From a virus, in the IMG/VR virus record IMGVR_UViG_3300034220_000038, positions 1 to 35,228 of that record: 35,228 nucleotides of DNA; one strand, given 5' to 3'. Each line of letters begins with the position of its first letter. The first letter of the stretch is position 1. The translations under genes were made by a program, and so were the position numbers. The notes beneath the pieces are model-generated. The model was not told where the DNA came from and did no database searches. It worked only from the letters and a program-made list of their open reading frames with translations. This document shows, piece by piece, positions 4,660 to 20,228 of the stretch.

Positions 4660-5570
4660 CCGCTCCCTGGATCACCGAGCCTGGCATCTACGAGATGACC
4701 GACGTCGACTACCACGCCGACCCCGTCGTCGATGGCTCCCTGTCCTCCACCGGGGCCCGCATCCTCGCCACCCGCACCCCGGCGCACTTCGAGCACAACC
4801 GGCGCCACGGCCGGCCCGACAAGGCCGACCTCGACTTCGGCCGCGTCGCACACGCCCGCGTGCTGGGCCGCGGCTCCGACGTCGCCGTCATCGTCGGCAC
4901 CGGCAAGGACCGCAACGCCTGGCGCACCGACGCCGACAAGGCCGCCGTCGCCCGAGCCCGCGCCGCCGGGAAGACCCCGATCCGCTACAAGGACCACCAG
5001 GCCGTCGAGCAGATGGCTGCCCGGCTCCGCGAGCACGCCACCGCCGGGCCGCTGCTCGCCCGTCCGGGCCAGCACGAGTCCGTGTGGGTGTGGCGCGACC
5101 CCGACACCGGGGTGTGGCGCCGGCTCATGGCCGACTTCCTGCCCGACGTCCCCGACGGCGCCCGCCGCATCGTCGTCGACTACAAGACCTGCGCCGACGC
5201 CAGCCCGGCCGCGTTCGCGAAGAGCATGGCGAACTACGGCTACGACCAGCAGGGCGACTGGTACTGCGCCGGCGTCCATGCCCTGGACCCCCGCGACGAG
5301 CCCCCGCAGTTCGTGCTCATCGCGCAGGACAAGGAGCCGCCCTACCTCGTCACGGTGTCCTACCTCGACGAGCAGGCCCTCGCCCGCGGCGCGCACCGCA
5401 ACCGCCGCGCCCTCCAGCTCTACGCGCAGTGCACCGCCACCGGCCAGTGGCCCGGCTATCCCGTCGAGCCCGTCGAGCTGCGCCTGCCGGCGTGGGCCGC
5501 GCGGGAGTTCGAGGCCGAGCTGGACACCGCCGCGTTCCCCGTCGACTCCCTCGGAGGCACACCCGCATGA
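4656..5570 (+). CDS. RecE/exonuclease VIII-like PD-(D/E)XK nuclease
   Basis: This 304-residue protein resembles phage exonucleases of the RecE C-terminal family (PDDEXK nuclease superfamily), which resect one strand of duplex ends to leave ssDNA for annealing. Visible features are an N-terminal YHADPVVDGSLSSTGARIL segment, FGRVAHARVLG (61-71), E141, D160, the D-Y-K-T box at 175-178 that supplies the catalytic Asp and Lys, and a following Tyr/Gln-rich helix (YGYDQQGDWY). Length matches the family. It is coupled by ATGA to the RecT/Bet gene immediately downstream, the classic two-component recombination pair. Confidence 0.85.
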   Translation: MTAPWITEPGIYEMTDVDYHADPVVDGSLSSTGARILATRTPAHFEHNRRHGRPDKADLDFGRVAHARVLGRGSDVAVIVGTGKDRNAWRTDADKAAVARARAAGKTPIRYKDHQAVEQMAARLREHATAGPLLARPGQHESVWVWRDPDTGVWRRLMADFLPDVPDGARRIVVDYKTCADASPAAFAKSMANYGYDQQGDWYCAGVHALDPRDEPPQFVLIAQDKEPPYLVTVSYLDEQALARGAHRNRRALQLYAQCTATGQWPGYPVEPVELRLPAWAAREFEAELDTAAFPVDSLGGTPA

Positions 5571-6757
5571 CCGGCACCGAGATCGCCGTTCGCGACCCGC
5601 AGGCGGGGACGCTCGCCCTGTCCGGCGACCAGGTCGAGTGGTCGCCCGTCCAGCAGGCCGCGCTCGCCCACATCGGCATCGCCGACGCCCCGCCCGCCGA
5701 CCAGCAGGTGTTCCTGCACGTCTGCCAGCGGATCCGGCTCGACCCGTTCGCCCGCCAGGTCTACATGATCGGTCGTCGCGAGCGCGGCAAGGGCGGCGAG
5801 CCCGACACCGTGAAGTGGACCATCCAGACCGGGATCGACGGGTTCCGGCTCATCGCCGAGCGGCACGAACAGTACGCCGGCACGCTCGACCCGGAGTGGT
5901 GCGGCCAGGACGGCGTCTGGCGGGAGGCCTGGGTCGACCGGCAGCCGCCCGTCGCCGCCCGGGTGAAGGTCCTGCGCCACGACCGCGCCCACCCGATCAC
6001 GCTGCCCGTCCGGTTCACCGAGTTCGCCGCCACGTTCGGCGACGGGAACCTGCAGGGCCAGTGGCGCACGAAGCCGGCGCACATGATCGCGAAGGTCGCC
6101 GAGGCCGCCGCCCTGCGCAAGGCGTTCCCGCAGGAGCTGTCCGGGCTCTACACCGACGACGAGATGGACGGCGCCGCGTCCACCGGCCGCGGCCCGGCCG
6201 GCCGCGCCTCCTCGACGCCGGGCGTCACCGCCGCCGAGCTCACCGGCGCGCCCACCGTCGTCGACGCCGAGCCGGAGCCCGAGCCGCCGCGGGCCGCCAA
6301 GAAGACGTCCGCCCCGGGGAAGACGCGCACGAGCGCGGCGGGTGCGGCGACGCCGGCAGCGGCGGACCCGGAGGCCTCGTCGGGCCCGCCGCTGCCCGGC
6401 GAGGACGAGCCGCCGGCGGAGGACCAGGCGCCCGGCCCGGCCGACACCGACCCCGCGACGAAGCCGCAGAACGCCCACATGCACGCCCTGTTCCGCGAGG
6501 CCGAGGTGGCCGACCGCGACGAGCGGCTCAAGCTCACCGGCCTGCTGCTTGACCGCCAGCTCGACACCAGCAAGGGCCTCACCGTCACCGACGCGCGCGC
6601 CATCATCGACGCGCTCGTCCGGCTCAAGGACTCCGGCCACAAGGACGGCCTCGCCGGCGCCGTCAACGACCTGCTCAACCTCGCCGCGCTGCGGGAGGCC
6701 GAGGAGCAGGGCGACGGGCAGGACCGCTCGGACGACACGCGCCGGACCGAATCGTGA
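5567..6757 (+). CDS. RecT/Bet-type single-strand annealing protein
   Basis: This 396-residue annealing protein partners the exonuclease encoded just upstream. Residues about 25-202 carry the Bet/RecT core: QVFLHVCQRIRLDPFARQVY, the WTIQTGIDGFRLIAER block (84-99), and the AHMIAKVAEAAALRKAFP signature (171-188). A long Pro/Ala/Glu-rich linker (about 203-300) leads to a C-terminal helical domain (about 300-380), which may contact replication proteins or oligomerise. Such an extension is longer than in lambda Bet. Start is the ATG in an ATGA overlap. Confidence 0.9.
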   Translation: MTGTEIAVRDPQAGTLALSGDQVEWSPVQQAALAHIGIADAPPADQQVFLHVCQRIRLDPFARQVYMIGRRERGKGGEPDTVKWTIQTGIDGFRLIAERHEQYAGTLDPEWCGQDGVWREAWVDRQPPVAARVKVLRHDRAHPITLPVRFTEFAATFGDGNLQGQWRTKPAHMIAKVAEAAALRKAFPQELSGLYTDDEMDGAASTGRGPAGRASSTPGVTAAELTGAPTVVDAEPEPEPPRAAKKTSAPGKTRTSAAGAATPAAADPEASSGPPLPGEDEPPAEDQAPGPADTDPATKPQNAHMHALFREAEVADRDERLKLTGLLLDRQLDTSKGLTVTDARAIIDALVRLKDSGHKDGLAGAVNDLLNLAALREAEEQGDGQDRSDDTRRTES

Positions 6758-11415: not shown

Positions 11416-12020
11416 CCGACGTCCTCGGGATCGACCCCGGCCTCGCCCGCGCCGCCGTCGCGCGCATCCACCACACCGGCCAGGTCCGCACCTGGCGCTG
11501 GACGTCCGACCCGCTCGCCGACGGCCCCGACGGCCACCCACCCCTCGTCGACGTCCTCGACCGCGTCTGGGCCGTCCGCGCCTGGGCCATCAGCCACGCC
11601 ACCACCAGCACCGTCCTCGCCGTCCTCGAGTGGAAGGCCCACGGCGTCCAGCACGCTGCGGCCGAGGACGAGCGCGCCACCATCCGGCTCCTCATCGCCC
11701 GCGCGCTCACCCGCGCCGGCGTCCCCGTCGCTATCGCCCGCCCCGGCACCATGGAGCGCCTCCTCACCGGCCATGGCCGCCCCGGGAAGGACCGCGTCCG
11801 CGAGGTCGTTGCCCAGATCCACCCCCGCCAGGGCCTCGCGGCCCGCAGCCACGACGAGACCGACGCCGCCGGCCTGGCCACCCTCGCGCAGATCAAGCTC
11901 GCCGCCCTCCACGTCCCCGGATGGTCCGGGCCCTGGCTCGACGCCCGCGCCCTGGCCGTCGACCACGGCGTCCAGTGGCCCGCCCTCGACCACCTCGACC
12001 GACAGGACACCTCGCCATGA
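11412..12020 (+). CDS. RuvC-like Holliday junction resolvase
   Basis: This 202-residue protein has a RuvC/RNase H-like fold. The first strand holds the catalytic Asp in GIDPGLARAAV (D8), a second acidic residue lies in VLEWKA (E73), a basic GRPGKDRV box is at about 122-129, and a closing HDETDAAGLATLA (147-159) supplies the last acidic residues, as in RuvC DxxDA motifs. Such enzymes cut four-way junctions made by recombination or replication, and in phages help clear branched DNA before packaging. GTG start, GTGA overlap. Confidence 0.8.
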   Translation: MTDVLGIDPGLARAAVARIHHTGQVRTWRWTSDPLADGPDGHPPLVDVLDRVWAVRAWAISHATTSTVLAVLEWKAHGVQHAAAEDERATIRLLIARALTRAGVPVAIARPGTMERLLTGHGRPGKDRVREVVAQIHPRQGLAARSHDETDAAGLATLAQIKLAALHVPGWSGPWLDARALAVDHGVQWPALDHLDRQDTSP

Positions 12021-12157
12021 CCGCCCAGCCGCCCCCGCCGCTGCGTCCAGCAGGGTCACCGCTCCGGCGCCGCATGCTCGCCGAGCTCGCCATCGCCCGC
12101 TTCTGGCTCACCCTCCTCGTGCACGCGGCTCGGCCGCGTCGGCGACGCTCCCCGTAG
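12017..12157 (+). CDS. Very small basic protein ending the early operon
   Basis: This 46-residue protein begins MTAQPPPPLRPAGSPLRRR and has one amphipathic helix (MLAELAIARFWLTLLVHAA) and a poly-Arg end. The ATG overlaps the resolvase stop (ATGA), the main evidence that it is translated. A membrane-surface or nucleic-acid role could fit. No family seen. Confidence 0.45.
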   Translation: MTAQPPPPLRPAGSPLRRRMLAELAIARFWLTLLVHAARPRRRRSP

Positions 12158-12203
12158 ACCCCCGGCCAGGCCTCCCGCTCCCCAACCACAGGAGACCCGC
12201 CCC

Positions 12204-13058
12204 GTGCACGACCCGCAGCACGACGACGCCGTACCCGACGCCGTACCCGACGCCCTCGCCCAGATCGCCGCCCTGCTCCGCATCGAGGTCGCCGTCGACC
12301 AGCTCACCCGGCCCGAGACCCACCAGCTCGACCGCGACCACGCCGCAGCCCGCCGTCAGCTCGACGAGCTCAACCGGGCGCACGTCCTGCACATCCGCGT
12401 CCTCCGCGCCCGCTACCGCGACGCGCACGACCGCGGCCACGCCGACGGCGCCGACCGCGCGCTCTGCGGCATGCGGTACGTCGGCGAGCAGCACCGCCGC
12501 CGCCGAGCCCGACTCGCCGCCGGCCTCACCCCCACCACCGCGCAGCTGCCCCCGCTGCTCGACCAGCTCCAGGCCGCGATCGCCAACAGCGGCGACACCG
12601 GCCGCTCGCCCGGCGGCCCCGCCGCGCACCGCAGCCCCGTCGGCCTCGCCGCCCTCGCGATCGTCACCGACATGCAGCGCCACGTCGGCGCCCGCCGCCG
12701 CGAGCACCTGCACGACGGCCTCGTCACGTGGGCCCGCTGCCCCGACCGCACGGCCGACGACGCCGAGCTCGCCGAGCACTGGGTCGAGCACGCCCGCGCC
12801 GTCCTCCAGCCCAACCCGACCGGCACCCGCGGCCTCCGCGGCCGCTGCCCCGCGTGCGGCCGCTCCGCCGTTAGCGTCCCCGACGACACCGGCGAGCTCG
12901 TGCACCGCAACGCCCTGCAGGTCGACCACACCACCGCCGTGCACTGCCTCGGCTGCGGCGACTACACCCCGCCCTGGCGGGCGCACCTGCTCGCCGAGGT
13001 CCTCGAGCAGCAGACCGACGACGCCCGCCGGTCCGGCTCCGTCAACCGTCCCGCCTGA
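12204..13058 (+). CDS. Hypothetical protein with C-terminal zinc ribbon
   Basis: This 284-residue protein starts at GTG with AGGAG (12190-12194) nine bases upstream, so it is translated independently of the early chain. Helical Arg/His/Ala-rich segments occupy most of it. A C-terminal region has CPACG (about residue 213) and CLGCG about 37 residues later, a probable zinc ribbon, with DHTTAVH between. A 12-base tandem repeat at the 5-prime end gives DAVPDAVPDAL. Related proteins are common, unnamed, in actinophage early regions. Confidence 0.65.
   Translation: MHDPQHDDAVPDAVPDALAQIAALLRIEVAVDQLTRPETHQLDRDHAAARRQLDELNRAHVLHIRVLRARYRDAHDRGHADGADRALCGMRYVGEQHRRRRARLAAGLTPTTAQLPPLLDQLQAAIANSGDTGRSPGGPAAHRSPVGLAALAIVTDMQRHVGARRREHLHDGLVTWARCPDRTADDAELAEHWVEHARAVLQPNPTGTRGLRGRCPACGRSAVSVPDDTGELVHRNALQVDHTTAVHCLGCGDYTPPWRAHLLAEVLEQQTDDARRSGSVNRPA
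12225..12254 (+). repeat. 12-bp tandem repeat
   Basis: GACGCCGTACCC occurs twice head to tail (12225-12236, 12237-12248), then a half copy. It is in frame inside the start of a gene and adds an AVPD unit each time. It probably arose by slippage. Confidence 0.6.
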
Positions 13059-13075
13059 CCGCCCTACCGCGCCAG

Positions 13076-13456
13076 TCAGCCGATCCCGTGACGACGCAGC
13101 TCACGCCGCCGAGCGCGCCGATACCGCCGCTGCCTCGACACCAGCCAGTTCCCCCAGTAGATCGGGCCCCACAGCCCGCACGTCACGACCGTCAGCACGA
13201 CGTGCGTCGTGTGCGGGAAGTCCGGCTGACCGTTCTGCACCGCGGCCTCGGCCGCGTACGTGTGCGCGACCGTCCGCCCCACCGCCCGAGCACCGTGCGC
13301 TGCGCCCAGCGCCGCATCCCGCGCCCGAGCGCGACTCGCGGCTCGCACCTCAGCTGGCGACGGCGTCGGAGCGGCGTTGCCCAGTACCGCGTCGGCCCGG
13401 CGGCGCGTCTCGTGTGCATCCCCCACACCCCGATCATCGCCACCGCGCCGGCGCAC
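13076..13456 (-). CDS. Leftward small membrane protein
   Basis: This 126-residue protein is opposite in direction to its neighbours. A charged Ala/Arg-rich N-terminus leads to one transmembrane segment (about residues 84-106) with the pattern HVVLTVVTCGLWGPIYWGNWLV, which resembles short phage and actinobacterial proteins with a THxxLTxxTxGLW motif. A basic tail (RRYRRARRRELRR) follows. GTG start assumed; no strong ribosome site. Reverse-oriented single genes in temperate phages are often expressed from the prophage. Function unknown. Confidence 0.6.
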   Translation of the reverse strand: MRRRGGDDRGVGDAHETRRRADAVLGNAAPTPSPAEVRAASRARARDAALGAAHGARAVGRTVAHTYAAEAAVQNGQPDFPHTTHVVLTVVTCGLWGPIYWGNWLVSRQRRYRRARRRELRRHGIG

Positions 13457-13546
13457 GTCAGCCCACCCACCCCGACATCACCAGAACGAGGGACCTCCTC
13501 ACCGGAACGGCCCCGCGGCCCGGTCACGGCGCGGCACCATGAACCC

Positions 13547-15507: not shown

Positions 15508-15875
15508 CGCGCGACGCCGGTCTCCATCCACTCGTCGACCGCCACCGAGTACCTCTCGGCCTCGTCGTCCGGCAGCAGCCGCTCCATCAGCAGCGCGTGC
15601 GCCACCACCCGCAACCCGCCCTGCCGCAACTCCTGCAGCAGCACGTCGTCCGGGCGCTCCCGGTACGACATCGCCGTGTCCACGGCCCGAGGCGGCAGCA
15701 CCTGCGCCCGGTCGCCCGCCGGGGACAGCGTCGCCCGCACCTCGTCCGCCATCCACCCCGGGATCTCGTCGTAGTGCAGGTCCGCGGCCTGCGCCACCAC
15801 CACCCGCACGTCGTCCGGATCCACCCCGAGCTCCTCGCCCAGGGACTCCGCCGTGGCCACCGCGTCGTCGCTCAC
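15504..15875 (-). CDS. Leftward hypothetical protein
   Basis: This 123-residue acidic protein is on the opposite strand, meeting the upstream gene tail to tail at a shared CTAG. It reads as mixed alpha/beta (ELGVDPDDVRVVVAQAADLHYDEIPGWM, then LRVVAHALLMERLLPDDEAERY). GTG start assumed at the right end, next to the presumed late promoter region. Like the leftward gene at 13076 it may be expressed independently of the lytic operons. No family recognised. Confidence 0.55.
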   Translation of the reverse strand: MSDDAVATAESLGEELGVDPDDVRVVVAQAADLHYDEIPGWMADEVRATLSPAGDRAQVLPPRAVDTAMSYRERPDDVLLQELRQGGLRVVAHALLMERLLPDDEAERYSVAVDEWMETGVAR

Positions 15876-15919
15876 GCCGCCGACGGTACGACGCCGCCGC
15901 GGCGTACGACAGCGCCACG

Positions 15920-15950
15920 TTGCGTGACCCCCAGGTCAACGGGTTACAGT
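15920..15950 (+). promoter_or_regulatory. Possible late-operon promoter
   Basis: TTGCGT (15920-15925) and TACAGT (15945-15950) are separated by 19 bases, slightly long, in the gap before the first late gene. The direction and position suit a promoter for the packaging and structural genes. It is weak by consensus and may need a phage activator. Confidence 0.35.
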
Positions 15951-16011
15951 GCGCTCGCTCGCATCCTCTGTGCCCGCAGCCACCTGCAAGTTGCCGCCGG
16001 AGGTGAGGCCC

Positions 16012-16140
16012 GTGCGCGCACCCCACGGCCCCCGCACTCCCGCCGGCTGGATCCACCTCGGCGCTGTCCTCGGCCTCGCGATCGTCATCGCCGTCGCCCT
16101 CATCCTCGGGGTGCTCCTCGCCGGCCACCTCGGACCATGA
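16012..16140 (+). CDS. Short single-span membrane protein
   Basis: This 42-residue protein has one strong transmembrane helix (GAVLGLAIVIAVALILGVLLAG). I chose the GTG at 16012 because GGAGGTGAGG (15999-16008) lies just upstream; the longer frame from 15949 has no ribosome site. The stop overlaps the HNH gene by ATGA. First gene of the late region, function unknown. Confidence 0.55.
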   Translation: MRAPHGPRTPAGWIHLGAVLGLAIVIAVALILGVLLAGHLGP

Positions 16141-16451
16141 CCGTAGGCCAGTGGCGCTCCAGCACCCGCCGCGCGCGCCTACCCACCGACTGGCCAGCCC
16201 GCCGCCGCCGCATCCTCATCCGCGACCAGCACCGCTGCCAGCTCGACTACCCCGGCATCTGCGCCGAACGGGCCACCGACGTCGACCACATCATCGCCGG
16301 CGACAACCACGACGACCACAACCTCCAGGCCGCGTGCGACCCCTGCCACCAGCACAAGAGCTCCCGCGAAGGCGTCCACGCCCGCGCCGACCGAGCAGCG
16401 CAGCGGCTGCGCCCGCCCCGCCGACACCCCGGACGAAGGAGCGACCCATGA
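16137..16451 (+). CDS. HNH endonuclease
   Basis: This 104-residue HNH nuclease has an N-terminal Arg-rich segment, Cys34 and Cys42 in CQLDYPGIC, the DVDHIIAG metal motif (D50-H51), an Asn in DDHNLQAAC, and CDPCHQHKS (67-75) supplying the zinc pair and last histidines. HNH proteins beside terminase genes in cos-type phages assist end cutting during packaging, so this one probably does the same. ATGA coupling with both neighbours. Confidence 0.85.
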   Translation: MTVGQWRSSTRRARLPTDWPARRRRILIRDQHRCQLDYPGICAERATDVDHIIAGDNHDDHNLQAACDPCHQHKSSREGVHARADRAAQRLRPPRRHPGRRSDP

Positions 16452-17023: not shown

Positions 17024-17458
17024 ATGCCAGCGACCGGCCGGAAGCCGAAGCCGGAGGGCCAGGCGGTCAACCGCCACCGCCCGACGCACGAGTGGAACGA
17101 CGTGATCGACGTCCCGTTCGAGGACGGCCCGAAGCTGCCCAGCCGGCAGCCGACCGGGCCGGCGTGGCCGGCGCGGACGAAGCGGTGGTGGTCGATCATC
17201 TCGGCGATGCCGCACTGCCGGCTGTGGACGGCGTCGGACTGGGAGTTCGCGCTGGACACCGCGCAGGTCGCCGCCGAGATGCACTCGGGCAACGTGCGCG
17301 TCGCGACGGAGCTGCGGAATCGGGAGCGGGTGCTCGGCACGACGGTCGACTACCGCCGCGACCTGCGGATCCGGTACGTGCCCCCGACCGTCGAGCAGGA
17401 GCTCGACGAGCCGGCGTCGGTGTCGAGGCTCGATGACTTCCGCGGCCAGTTCGACTGA
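17024..17458 (+). CDS. Terminase small subunit
   Basis: This 144-residue protein sits immediately before the large subunit, overlapping it by 26 bases. Its N-terminus (RKPKPEGQAVNRHRPTHEWNDV) and the WARTKRWW-like WPARTKRWWSIISAMPHCRLW block, followed by helices (EFALDTAQVAAEMHSG, ATELRNRERVLG), match the usual small-subunit style of actinophages. It recognises the packaging site and regulates the ATPase/nuclease. GGAGG (17015-17019) precedes the ATG. Confidence 0.8.
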   Translation: MPATGRKPKPEGQAVNRHRPTHEWNDVIDVPFEDGPKLPSRQPTGPAWPARTKRWWSIISAMPHCRLWTASDWEFALDTAQVAAEMHSGNVRVATELRNRERVLGTTVDYRRDLRIRYVPPTVEQELDEPASVSRLDDFRGQFD

Positions 17459-20228
17459 GCAGCCGCCGGGCTACTACGTCGACGCGGTCACCGGGGCATG
17501 GCTGACCCTGCCGTGGCCGGGCGACCCGGGCCTGCCGTTCGGGCATCCGGAGCGCACAGCGCTGCTGCCGCCGAGCCTGGGTCCGCAGGTGTGGGCGTGG
17601 TGCGAGCGGTGGCTGCTGCACCACCTGACCGGCGACTCGTGGCGGTTCACGCCGGGACAGCGCCGGTTCGTCTACCTCTGGTACGCCGTGTCGGCCGAGG
17701 GCCGGTGGCTGTACCGTTCCGCGGTGAAGCGGGGAGCGAAGGGGCCGATCGCGAACGACACCCCTGTCCCGACGCCCATCGGCTGGGTGAGGCACGGCGA
17801 GCTCGCTCCGGGGACGCTCGTCTACGCGGCCGACGGAACTCCGACGAGGGTGCTCGACGTCCATGAAGAGGTTCTCGAACCCTGCTACGAGGTGACGTTC
17901 CGGAACGGCGAGAAGGTGGTCTGCACCGGATCGCATCGCTGGCCGATGGCCGAGTTCCGGGGCGACGGCCGCGTGAATCGCATCGTCAGCGTCGAGGAGA
18001 TGCTGGCGGCTGGCGTCGTGTACGAGCGCCGTCTGACGAGCGGCCGAACGAAGGCGACGCGAGCAGGGGTTGCTCGGTGGCGCGGCCTGCCGTCTCCTGC
18101 GCTGCAGGGTGTGACCTGCGAGTTCCCCGTGCCGCCGTACGTGCTCGGCTACTGGCTGGGCGACGGGGACAGTGACCAGCCGCGGATCACTGCGCACCGA
18201 GACGACCTCGAGTCGCTGCGGGAGCAGTTCGAGGCCGAGGGGATGCCGCTCGGCGAGGCGAAGCCGACCCACGGCGAGACCTTCCGAGTGCGGTTCGGCG
18301 CGCGCGGGGTGGCCAAGGCCGCGCTGCGCGACGCCGGACTCCTGATGGCCAAGCACATCCCGGCCGAGCTGCAGCGATCGTCGGTGGAGCAGCGGTGGGC
18401 GCTGCTCCAAGGACTTGTCGACTCCGACGGCACGGTCTCGAAGGGCGGGAACGTCGAGATCAGCCTGAGCGATCCACGCCTCGCAGCCGACGTGTTCGAG
18501 CTGGCCGTCGGGCTGGGCCTGATGCCGACGAAGAGCGTCTCGGCGAGCTCGTTCCGGGGTCAGGCGTACCTACCCCGGACGCGGATCAAGTTCACCCCCA
18601 CTGCCGCCGAGATCGTGAGCCGGCTGCCGCGCAAGCTGGAGCGCACAGGACAGCCGCGGCGGCACGCGGTTCCGTTCTCGCGCTCGCGAACGGTGGTGTC
18701 GATCGAGCGCGTGCCCAGCGTGCCCGCCCGCTGCATCACTGTGGAGCACGAGTCGCACCAGTACGTGGTCGGCGATCGCAGCCTGGTCACCTGCAACACC
18801 GGGAAGGACCCGTTCGGCGGGGCGCTGGTCAACGCCGAGCTGTGCGGCCCGGTCGCGCTGGCCGGCTGGGAGGACGGCCGTCCGCTGGGCCGTCGCCACC
18901 GGATGCCGCTGGTGCAGATCGCGGCCAACTCGGAGGCGCAGGCGAAGGACCTGCTGCGCGTGGCGAACGCGATGCAGTCGCCGGAGCTGCGCCAGGAGCT
19001 GGGCATCGACCCGGGCGAGACCCGGACGACGATCTACGGCGGCGGTCGGGCGGAGCTGCTCACGGCGTCGGAGGCGTCGTCGGAGGGCGACCCGGTCACG
19101 GCGATCTTCCTGAACGAGACCCACCACGCGAAGAGCTCGAACGGTGGGCACGCGGTCGCAGCGACGGCTCGGCGGAACGCCGGGAAGTCCCCGGCCTACA
19201 TCCAGGCTCGGCTGGCCGAGCTGACCAACGCGCACGAGCAGGGCGCGGACTCGGTGGCCGAGCGCAGCTTCGAGGCGTGGCAGGCGCAGGTCAGCGGCGC
19301 GTTTAAGCGGGTCGACATCCTGTACGACTCGCACGAGGCGCCTCCGAGCACGCAGCTCGACGATGACGACTCGCTGATGGCCGGGCTGCGGGCGGCGTAC
19401 AACGACGCGCCGTGGGCCGACTTGGAGCGGCTGCGCGACGAGGCGCAGGACCCGCGCACGTCGACGGCGGAGTCGATCCGGTACTACCTCAACGGGTTGG
19501 CCGCGGCGGAGGACGCCTGGATCGACCCCGGAAAGTTCGACGGTCGCGCCCGGCCGGAGCTGGTGGTCGCCGACCGCGAGCAGCTGGCGATGTTCCTGGA
19601 CTGCTCGAAGTCCACGGACGCGACCGGCCTGGTGGCGGCGCGGCTCTCGGATGGGCACGTGATCACCCTCGGCGGGTGGCAGCGCCCGCACGGCGATCGC
19701 GGCAAGGGGTGGCTCGCGCCGCGCAGCGAGGTCGACGCGACGGTGCGCGCGGCGTTCGAGCGGTGGGACGTCGCGTGGTTCGGGGTGGACCCGTCGCCGG
19801 CTCGGGACGACGAGACCGAGGCGCTGTACTGGATGCAGCTCATCGACGGCTGGCACCGGGACTTCCGGGACCGGCTTGCGGTGTGGGCCACCTCGGGCGC
19901 CGGCGGGCACAGCGTGCTGTTCGACATGCGGCTGTCGCAGCCGGGTGGCGCGGCCCGCGTGCAGCGCTTCACCCTCGCCGCCGAGCAGACCCAGCTCGAC
20001 ATCGACGAGGACGAGACCCTCACCCACGACGGGCACGCGATGCTGCGGCTCCACGCGCATAACGCGCGCCGGCGCCCGAACCAGTGGGGCGTGAGCCTGG
20101 GCAAGGTGACGCGCGACAGCAGCAAGCTCGTCGACCTAGCCGTGTGCATGGTCGGCGCCCGGATGGGGCGCCGGCTGGCCCTGAACAGCGGCAAGACGAC
20201 CAAGAAGCGCAGCGGCAAGGTCTGGTGA
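17433..20228 (+). CDS. Terminase large subunit precursor with embedded intein
   Basis: This 931-residue precursor would leave a mature enzyme of 580 residues after removal of the intein (105-455). The intein splits the ATP-binding loop: the flanks RGAKG and TGKDPFGG join to give the KGTGKDP P-loop. The ATPase domain continues with MPLVQIAANSEAQAKDLL and IFLNETHHAKSSNGGH (Walker B/coupling region). The nuclease domain carries the acidic FLDCSKSTDATGLV and later VDPSPARDD and DSSKLVDLAVCMVGARMG. The protein drives DNA into the capsid and cuts it. The ATG lies inside the small-subunit gene. Splicing is needed for activity. Confidence 0.9.
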   Translation: MTSAASSTEQPPGYYVDAVTGAWLTLPWPGDPGLPFGHPERTALLPPSLGPQVWAWCERWLLHHLTGDSWRFTPGQRRFVYLWYAVSAEGRWLYRSAVKRGAKGPIANDTPVPTPIGWVRHGELAPGTLVYAADGTPTRVLDVHEEVLEPCYEVTFRNGEKVVCTGSHRWPMAEFRGDGRVNRIVSVEEMLAAGVVYERRLTSGRTKATRAGVARWRGLPSPALQGVTCEFPVPPYVLGYWLGDGDSDQPRITAHRDDLESLREQFEAEGMPLGEAKPTHGETFRVRFGARGVAKAALRDAGLLMAKHIPAELQRSSVEQRWALLQGLVDSDGTVSKGGNVEISLSDPRLAADVFELAVGLGLMPTKSVSASSFRGQAYLPRTRIKFTPTAAEIVSRLPRKLERTGQPRRHAVPFSRSRTVVSIERVPSVPARCITVEHESHQYVVGDRSLVTCNTGKDPFGGALVNAELCGPVALAGWEDGRPLGRRHRMPLVQIAANSEAQAKDLLRVANAMQSPELRQELGIDPGETRTTIYGGGRAELLTASEASSEGDPVTAIFLNETHHAKSSNGGHAVAATARRNAGKSPAYIQARLAELTNAHEQGADSVAERSFEAWQAQVSGAFKRVDILYDSHEAPPSTQLDDDDSLMAGLRAAYNDAPWADLERLRDEAQDPRTSTAESIRYYLNGLAAAEDAWIDPGKFDGRARPELVVADREQLAMFLDCSKSTDATGLVAARLSDGHVITLGGWQRPHGDRGKGWLAPRSEVDATVRAAFERWDVAWFGVDPSPARDDETEALYWMQLIDGWHRDFRDRLAVWATSGAGGHSVLFDMRLSQPGGAARVQRFTLAAEQTQLDIDEDETLTHDGHAMLRLHAHNARRRPNQWGVSLGKVTRDSSKLVDLAVCMVGARMGRRLALNSGKTTKKRSGKVW
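17745..18797 (+). other. Intein with LAGLIDADG homing endonuclease, class 3 features
   Basis: This 351-residue insertion begins PIANDTPVPTPIGW and ends VTCN before a Thr extein residue. It has no N-terminal Cys or Ser. It instead shows the W-C-T triplet that defines class 3 inteins: Trp170 in SHRW (block B), Cys434 in ARCITVEH (block F) and Thr453 before the last two residues (block G). The usual penultimate His is replaced by Cys454; Asn455 is the cyclising residue. Two LAGLIDADG motifs, LGYWLGDGD (238-246) and LLQGLVDSDG (324-333), make a full homing nuclease. Numbering is from the precursor start. Confidence 0.9.

Follow-up and report, generated by a model that had tools for sequence, protein, structure and literature searches.

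In the window analysed here, the whole of a virus record of 35,228 bases (~74% G+C), a gene for the terminase large subunit (TerL) carries in its Walker A loop what we judge, with a probability of about 93%, to be a mobile, full-length class 3 homing intein. The borders of the insertion, its splicing blocks, its nuclease and the modeled fold all bear on this reading, and the residue before its terminal Asn is Cys where class 3 inteins nearly always have His.

Terminase gene and insertion site

The interrupted gene, its parts and the gene preceding it are as follows.

17024..17458, + strand: gene occupying the small-terminase position (matches phrog_226, whose label is minor tail protein; Gordonia phage counterpart)
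17433..20228, + strand: TerL precursor with intein, 931 aa (phrog_9 match; neighbouring genes)
17433..17744, + strand: N-extein, residues 1-104, ending within the Walker A loop, after its first half RGAKG (collinear with empty terminases)
17745..18797, + strand: class 3 intein, 351 aa, residues 105-455 (empty-site alignment, blocks, model)
18798..20225, + strand: C-extein, residues 456-931, opening with the +1 Thr456 and the rest of the Walker A loop, TGKDP (empty-terminase alignment)

Against terminase large subunit profiles, the open reading frame at 17433-20228 (+) matched phrog_9 over residues 494-926 (E 1.6e-47). Genes for portal, protease, head-tail adaptor, tail assembly chaperone and tape measure proteins lie 3' of the terminase, and the terminase region is closest, among annotated phages, to those of Tsukamurella, Gordonia and other actinobacterial phages. 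In the Gordonia phages matched over this region, the gene preceding TerL is annotated as terminase small subunit. A profile match, a fold with a Walker A loop and an adjoining portal gene, the features by which TerL was identified, were all found, with the fold taken from the moderate-confidence model of an empty relative. This model (L029; mean pLDDT 68, N-terminal part better) gave HK97 terminase (E 1.3e-12) and T4 gp17 as best matches and puts the site between strand 95-99 and helix 108-119, in the loop that connects them; the model supports a Walker A location of the site, although the motif is deviant (GKD). Just 5' of the small-terminase position, the gene at 15597-16451 has an HNH endonuclease-like C-terminal half (phrog_333). 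Two long open reading frames elsewhere in the window (4732-6552, 606 aa; 11773-13542, 589 aa) had no PHROG match at E 0.001 and are likely spurious, because G+C is high.

The intein could be delimited to 17745-18797 exactly because 84 related terminases covering the site run across it without a gap. These empty alleles, collected by blastp and aligned, read ..RG(A/S)KG|(T, rarely V/I)GKD.., and on aligning the window terminase to them residue 104 joins residue 456 directly, with 351 window residues between G104 and T456. The same coordinates had been proposed in a preliminary description of this DNA made from its letters, and the empty alleles leave them unchanged. An in-frame insertion precisely absent from homologues is what marks an intein, and this one falls at AKG|TGKD, three residues ahead of the classic GK|T position. 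No intein at the same terminase site was present among the matches listed from the phage collection, and genomes G001 and G002 gave no match. In the terminase of phage Gaia (gp2, L035), which is 51-60% identical to the window exteins, the Walker A site is empty and a class 3 intein is found further along instead, at a position described as the Walker B site (PMC5050341).

Splicing domain, nuclease and proposed splicing route

The following positions, all on the + strand, were assigned within the intein.

17745..17747, + strand: Pro105, first intein residue and not a class 1 nucleophile (empty-site alignment)
17934..17942, + strand: block B His168-Arg169-Trp170 (B:10, B:11, B:12), the Trp being the W of the WCT triplet
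18144..18173, + strand: first LAGLIDADG motif, LGYWLGDGDS (motif; nuclease fold in the model)
18402..18431, + strand: second LAGLIDADG motif, LLQGLVDSDG (Pfam PF14528/PF05204)
18732..18734, + strand: Cys434 (F:4), predicted initiating nucleophile, the C of WCT
18756..18758, + strand: His442 (F:13), candidate helper of Asn cyclization
18789..18797, + strand: Thr453-Cys454-Asn455, being the G:5 Thr of WCT, the G:6 penultimate Cys in place of His and the G:7 terminal Asn

Class 3 inteins are defined by the WCT triplet together with a non-nucleophilic position 1 (PMC5050341, PMC7664689, PMC7891396). Both were found in the window intein, whose blocks read GSHRW for block B (TGSH-R-W), ARCITV and a following His for block F and V-T-C-N for block G, ahead of the +1 Thr456. 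The triplet is formed by W170 (B:12), C434 (F:4) and T453 (G:5), the last of which stands two residues ahead of the terminal Asn and is distinct from Thr456. After de-duplication, 87 class 3 relatives drawn from viral contigs and phages were compared, and five residues are invariant in them: the His at B:10, the Trp at B:12, the Cys at F:4, the Thr at G:5 and the terminal Asn. The class 3 assignment made in the preliminary description on these W-C-T residues therefore stands, as does its reading of position 1 as Pro with neither Cys nor Ser. The special character that it gave to this Pro was lost on comparison, since Pro1 is common (18 of the 87 relatives). The observation that it had named as speaking against class 3, namely a start elsewhere at a class 1 nucleophile, was looked for with the 84 empty alleles; these place the junction at G104|P105, with Pro first and no Cys or Ser nearby, and the alternative start was rejected. 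With the fold and blocks also matching class 3, there is a negligible chance that the start was misplaced in what is really a class 1 intein, or that the element is no intein at all.

The AlphaFold model of the intein, built from 43 rows, has a pLDDT of 94 and contains a HINT domain. Compared with solved structures, the full-length model aligns with PI-SceI at Z 28.3; for the splicing part, two class 3 inteins were matched, 6bs8 from M. smegmatis (Z 21.5, rmsd 1.3 Å over 124 residues) and 6rix (Z 21.3, rmsd 1.6 Å). The intein thus combines the HINT fold with blocks A, B, F and G and a terminal Asn followed by Thr. Pfam models PF14528 (LAGLIDADG_3) and PF05204 (Hom_end) score above their cut-offs, both LAGLIDADG motifs are intact with their acidic residues, and the model has the pseudo-dimer fold of a two-motif monomer, in agreement with the complete LAGLIDADG nuclease described earlier. 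No useful intein model was found in NCBIfam, and a pattern scan with Ser at +1 returned no matches.

The order of steps proposed for splicing is that of established class 3 intein chemistry. Cys434 would attack the Gly104-Pro105 bond to give a thioester in block F, the N-extein would then be transferred to Thr456, cyclization of Asn455 would release the intein, and conversion of the ester to a peptide bond would restore RGAKG-TGKD. Until splicing, the ATP-binding loop would be split and packaging should wait, so that gating of packaging by splicing is plausible. Cleavage of empty terminase alleles by the LAGLIDADG nuclease is expected at the conserved codon run, which would spread the intein. 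The penultimate Cys, standing in place of the His that speeds cyclization, would retune the last step, with His442 (F:13) providing the catalysis. We infer splicing, homing, nuclease activity, packaging gating and tuning for this intein. That it no longer splices and has left a dead terminase in a degraded phage is very unlikely: the contig may be a fragment, but the 931-codon frame is open, the catalytic residues and both nuclease motifs are intact, and the head and tail genes are in normal order.

The penultimate residue at the terminase site

The Cys before the terminal Asn, noted at the outset as atypical, is indeed Cys454 and is moreover conserved at this insertion site. Residue G:6 was surveyed by an intein profile search with seed patterns in the nuclease motif and block A, in which every kept match was read; this search was added because a T-C-N-T-G-K-x-P scan itself selects for Cys. 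Inteins inserted before (T/S)GK in terminases (n = 12) have nine Cys, two Gly, one of them in L104, and one His at G:6, versus 73 His, one Ser and one Arg at other sites (n = 75), an association with a Fisher p of 3e-11 when relatedness is ignored, the rows being related and not 12 independent events. The codon scan of viral contigs for T-C-N-T-G-K-x-P gave six inteins, all in terminases at the window's site, whereas its His-for-Cys version gave two, neither of them in a terminase at that site. Two of the site inteins (L063 and L065) were found only through the Cys scan, and without both, 9 of 10 are non-His. Intein loci from Actinomycetes genomes served as an outside control; most of them occupy P-loop sites of the GK|S type, and all 30 end in His-Asn. 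Outside the terminase site, the penultimate His is missing only in L034 (Gordonia phage YungMoney terminase, Arg) and L157 (Ser).

The same-site inteins in viral contigs share the insertion point before (T/S)GK, the WCT triplet and, mostly, the penultimate Cys. Whether built from whole inteins or from splicing domains, trees divide them into two well-supported groups that do not join. The first lineage (window, L054, L057, L060 and L079-L083) has Pro1 and HRW, with inteins 40-59% identical; the second (L056/L107, L063, L065, L104 and L152) has Ala1, with inteins ~35% identical and a terminase of a distant family, only ~25% identical where measured. The earliest branch of the first lineage, L083, retains the penultimate His, so the Cys of that lineage was probably acquired once the intein was already established at the site. 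L060 (7859-8848), which lies at this terminase site too, is a mosaic intein, with the splicing domain of the first lineage (50-65% identity with the first group against 41-47% with the second) and the nuclease of the second (48-54% identity with the second group against 31-36% with the first). Trees of the two parts place it accordingly, the whole-intein tree puts it with the second group, and it was recovered independently, as L025, via its terminase extein. The Cys codon could itself have been moved by recombination at the shared site, and two independent losses of the penultimate His are for that reason likely, short of proven.

The G:6 His normally assists Asn cyclization (PMC4031507, PMC7891396), and conservation of this His is low in class 1 inteins of mycobacteriophages (PMC5050341). 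Its loss can be tolerated and its re-addition can stall splicing, as in RDF G316H (PMC5050341) and AceL G145H (PMC7891396). The F:13 His is kept in 13 of 13 inteins without the penultimate His, compared to 35 of 74 that have it, which suggests that F:13 carries the cyclization step where the G:6 His is missing. Because the published cases show an added His harming splicing, we lean slightly toward the penultimate Cys being a retuning of the C-terminal cleavage step at this site, as opposed to drift or a redox switch. Two points weigh against tuning: His precedes TGK in another protein (L076) and in the same-site terminase intein L083, so the TGK context does not force His loss, and the lineages with His loss number at most two or so. 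The rule that a +2 Gly forces His loss was discarded, as L151 and L076 have His before T-G. Arg at B:11 as a specific, AceL-like compensation was likewise discarded; it is present in 6 of 6 first-lineage Cys members but also in 13 His-bearing inteins, and the second-lineage Cys members carry Gln at B:11.

A neutral origin of Cys and Gly, with the His dispensable and the site association due to descent and recombination, is a tentative alternative. Several inteins tolerate loss of the G:6 His (PMC4031507, PMC7664689) and the site lineages have recombined, as in the L060 chimera, but the His was lost in two separate lineages while being kept in 73 of 75 inteins elsewhere and in 30 of 30 from Actinomycetes genomes, Cys persists across inteins ~40-57% identical, and every other catalytic residue is intact. 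It is doubtful that a Cys434-Cys454 disulfide pauses splicing, and hence packaging, under oxidation. Although M. smegmatis DnaBi1, a class 3 intein, is reversibly halted by a disulfide on its F:4 Cys (PMC6195587), and Cys is the most frequent G:6 residue at the site (9 of 12), the two Gly and one His among site members imply that a thiol is not required. The partner cysteine in DnaBi1 also differs, and the matching Cys151 of the window is not kept in several site members; it is absent in L054 and in the second lineage and was rejected as a conserved partner for a DnaBi1-like disulfide. Selection at this terminase P-loop site for class 3 inteins that carry two active-site thiols (F:4 plus penultimate Cys), serving as a redox or timing switch that holds packaging off until conditions or capsid assembly permit splicing, is improbable.

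Relation to known inteins

TerL is the commonest intein host among mycobacteriophages, with its two commonest sites in the Walker A loop, and five representative terminase inteins splice, while two cleave empty alleles (Kelley et al. 2016, PMC5050341). A 2020 survey listed 1701 class 3 inteins, 82.5% of them with LAGLIDADG motifs (PMC7891396). A class 3 intein with a nuclease in the terminase P-loop is a known kind; the preliminary description had singled out its presence in a packaging-motor P-loop as noteworthy, and such TerL inteins were published in 2016 (PMC5050341). Like the TerL1-a and TerL1-b inteins (PMC5050341), for example that of Baka gp6, the window intein lies in the Walker A loop of a phage TerL and carries a LAGLIDADG nuclease. 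The Baka intein, in which we read the class 3 residues, spliced and cleaved the empty allele (PMC5050341). The two are ~34% identical, the Baka intein has the penultimate His where the window has Cys, and it is inserted after the P-loop Lys (..RQNGKG|S), whereas the window intein lies ahead of the T of TGK, three residues before GK|T. TerL1-a and TerL1-b sites are those at GK|T or one residue away; AKG|TGKD falls outside this range and is absent from the list of the 2016 mycobacteriophage survey.

The mycobacterial DnaB class 3 inteins MsmDnaBi1 (6bs8) and MchDnaB1 (6rix) share the WCT triplet, the internal Cys nucleophile and the fold (1.3-1.6 Å rmsd) with the window intein, but differ in having no nuclease domain, a penultimate His and a helicase host. 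The AceL NrdHF class 3 intein (PMC7891396), which splices well, is likewise without the G:6 His and has Arg at B:11; it differs in being split, with an MCT triplet, Gly at G:6 and no F:13 His, where the window has W and the F:13 His. No description of site-linked loss of the penultimate His was found in the openly readable literature that was searched.

The window intein brings a further insertion site, three residues away from the usual P-loop one, at which the near-invariant penultimate His of class 3 inteins was lost in step with the site, in two lineages. For protein engineering, the inteins of this site offer naturally occurring class 3 forms that carry Cys or Gly at G:6, and whether an intein adjusts its final cleavage step to suit the active site of its host protein becomes a question open to a direct and inexpensive test.
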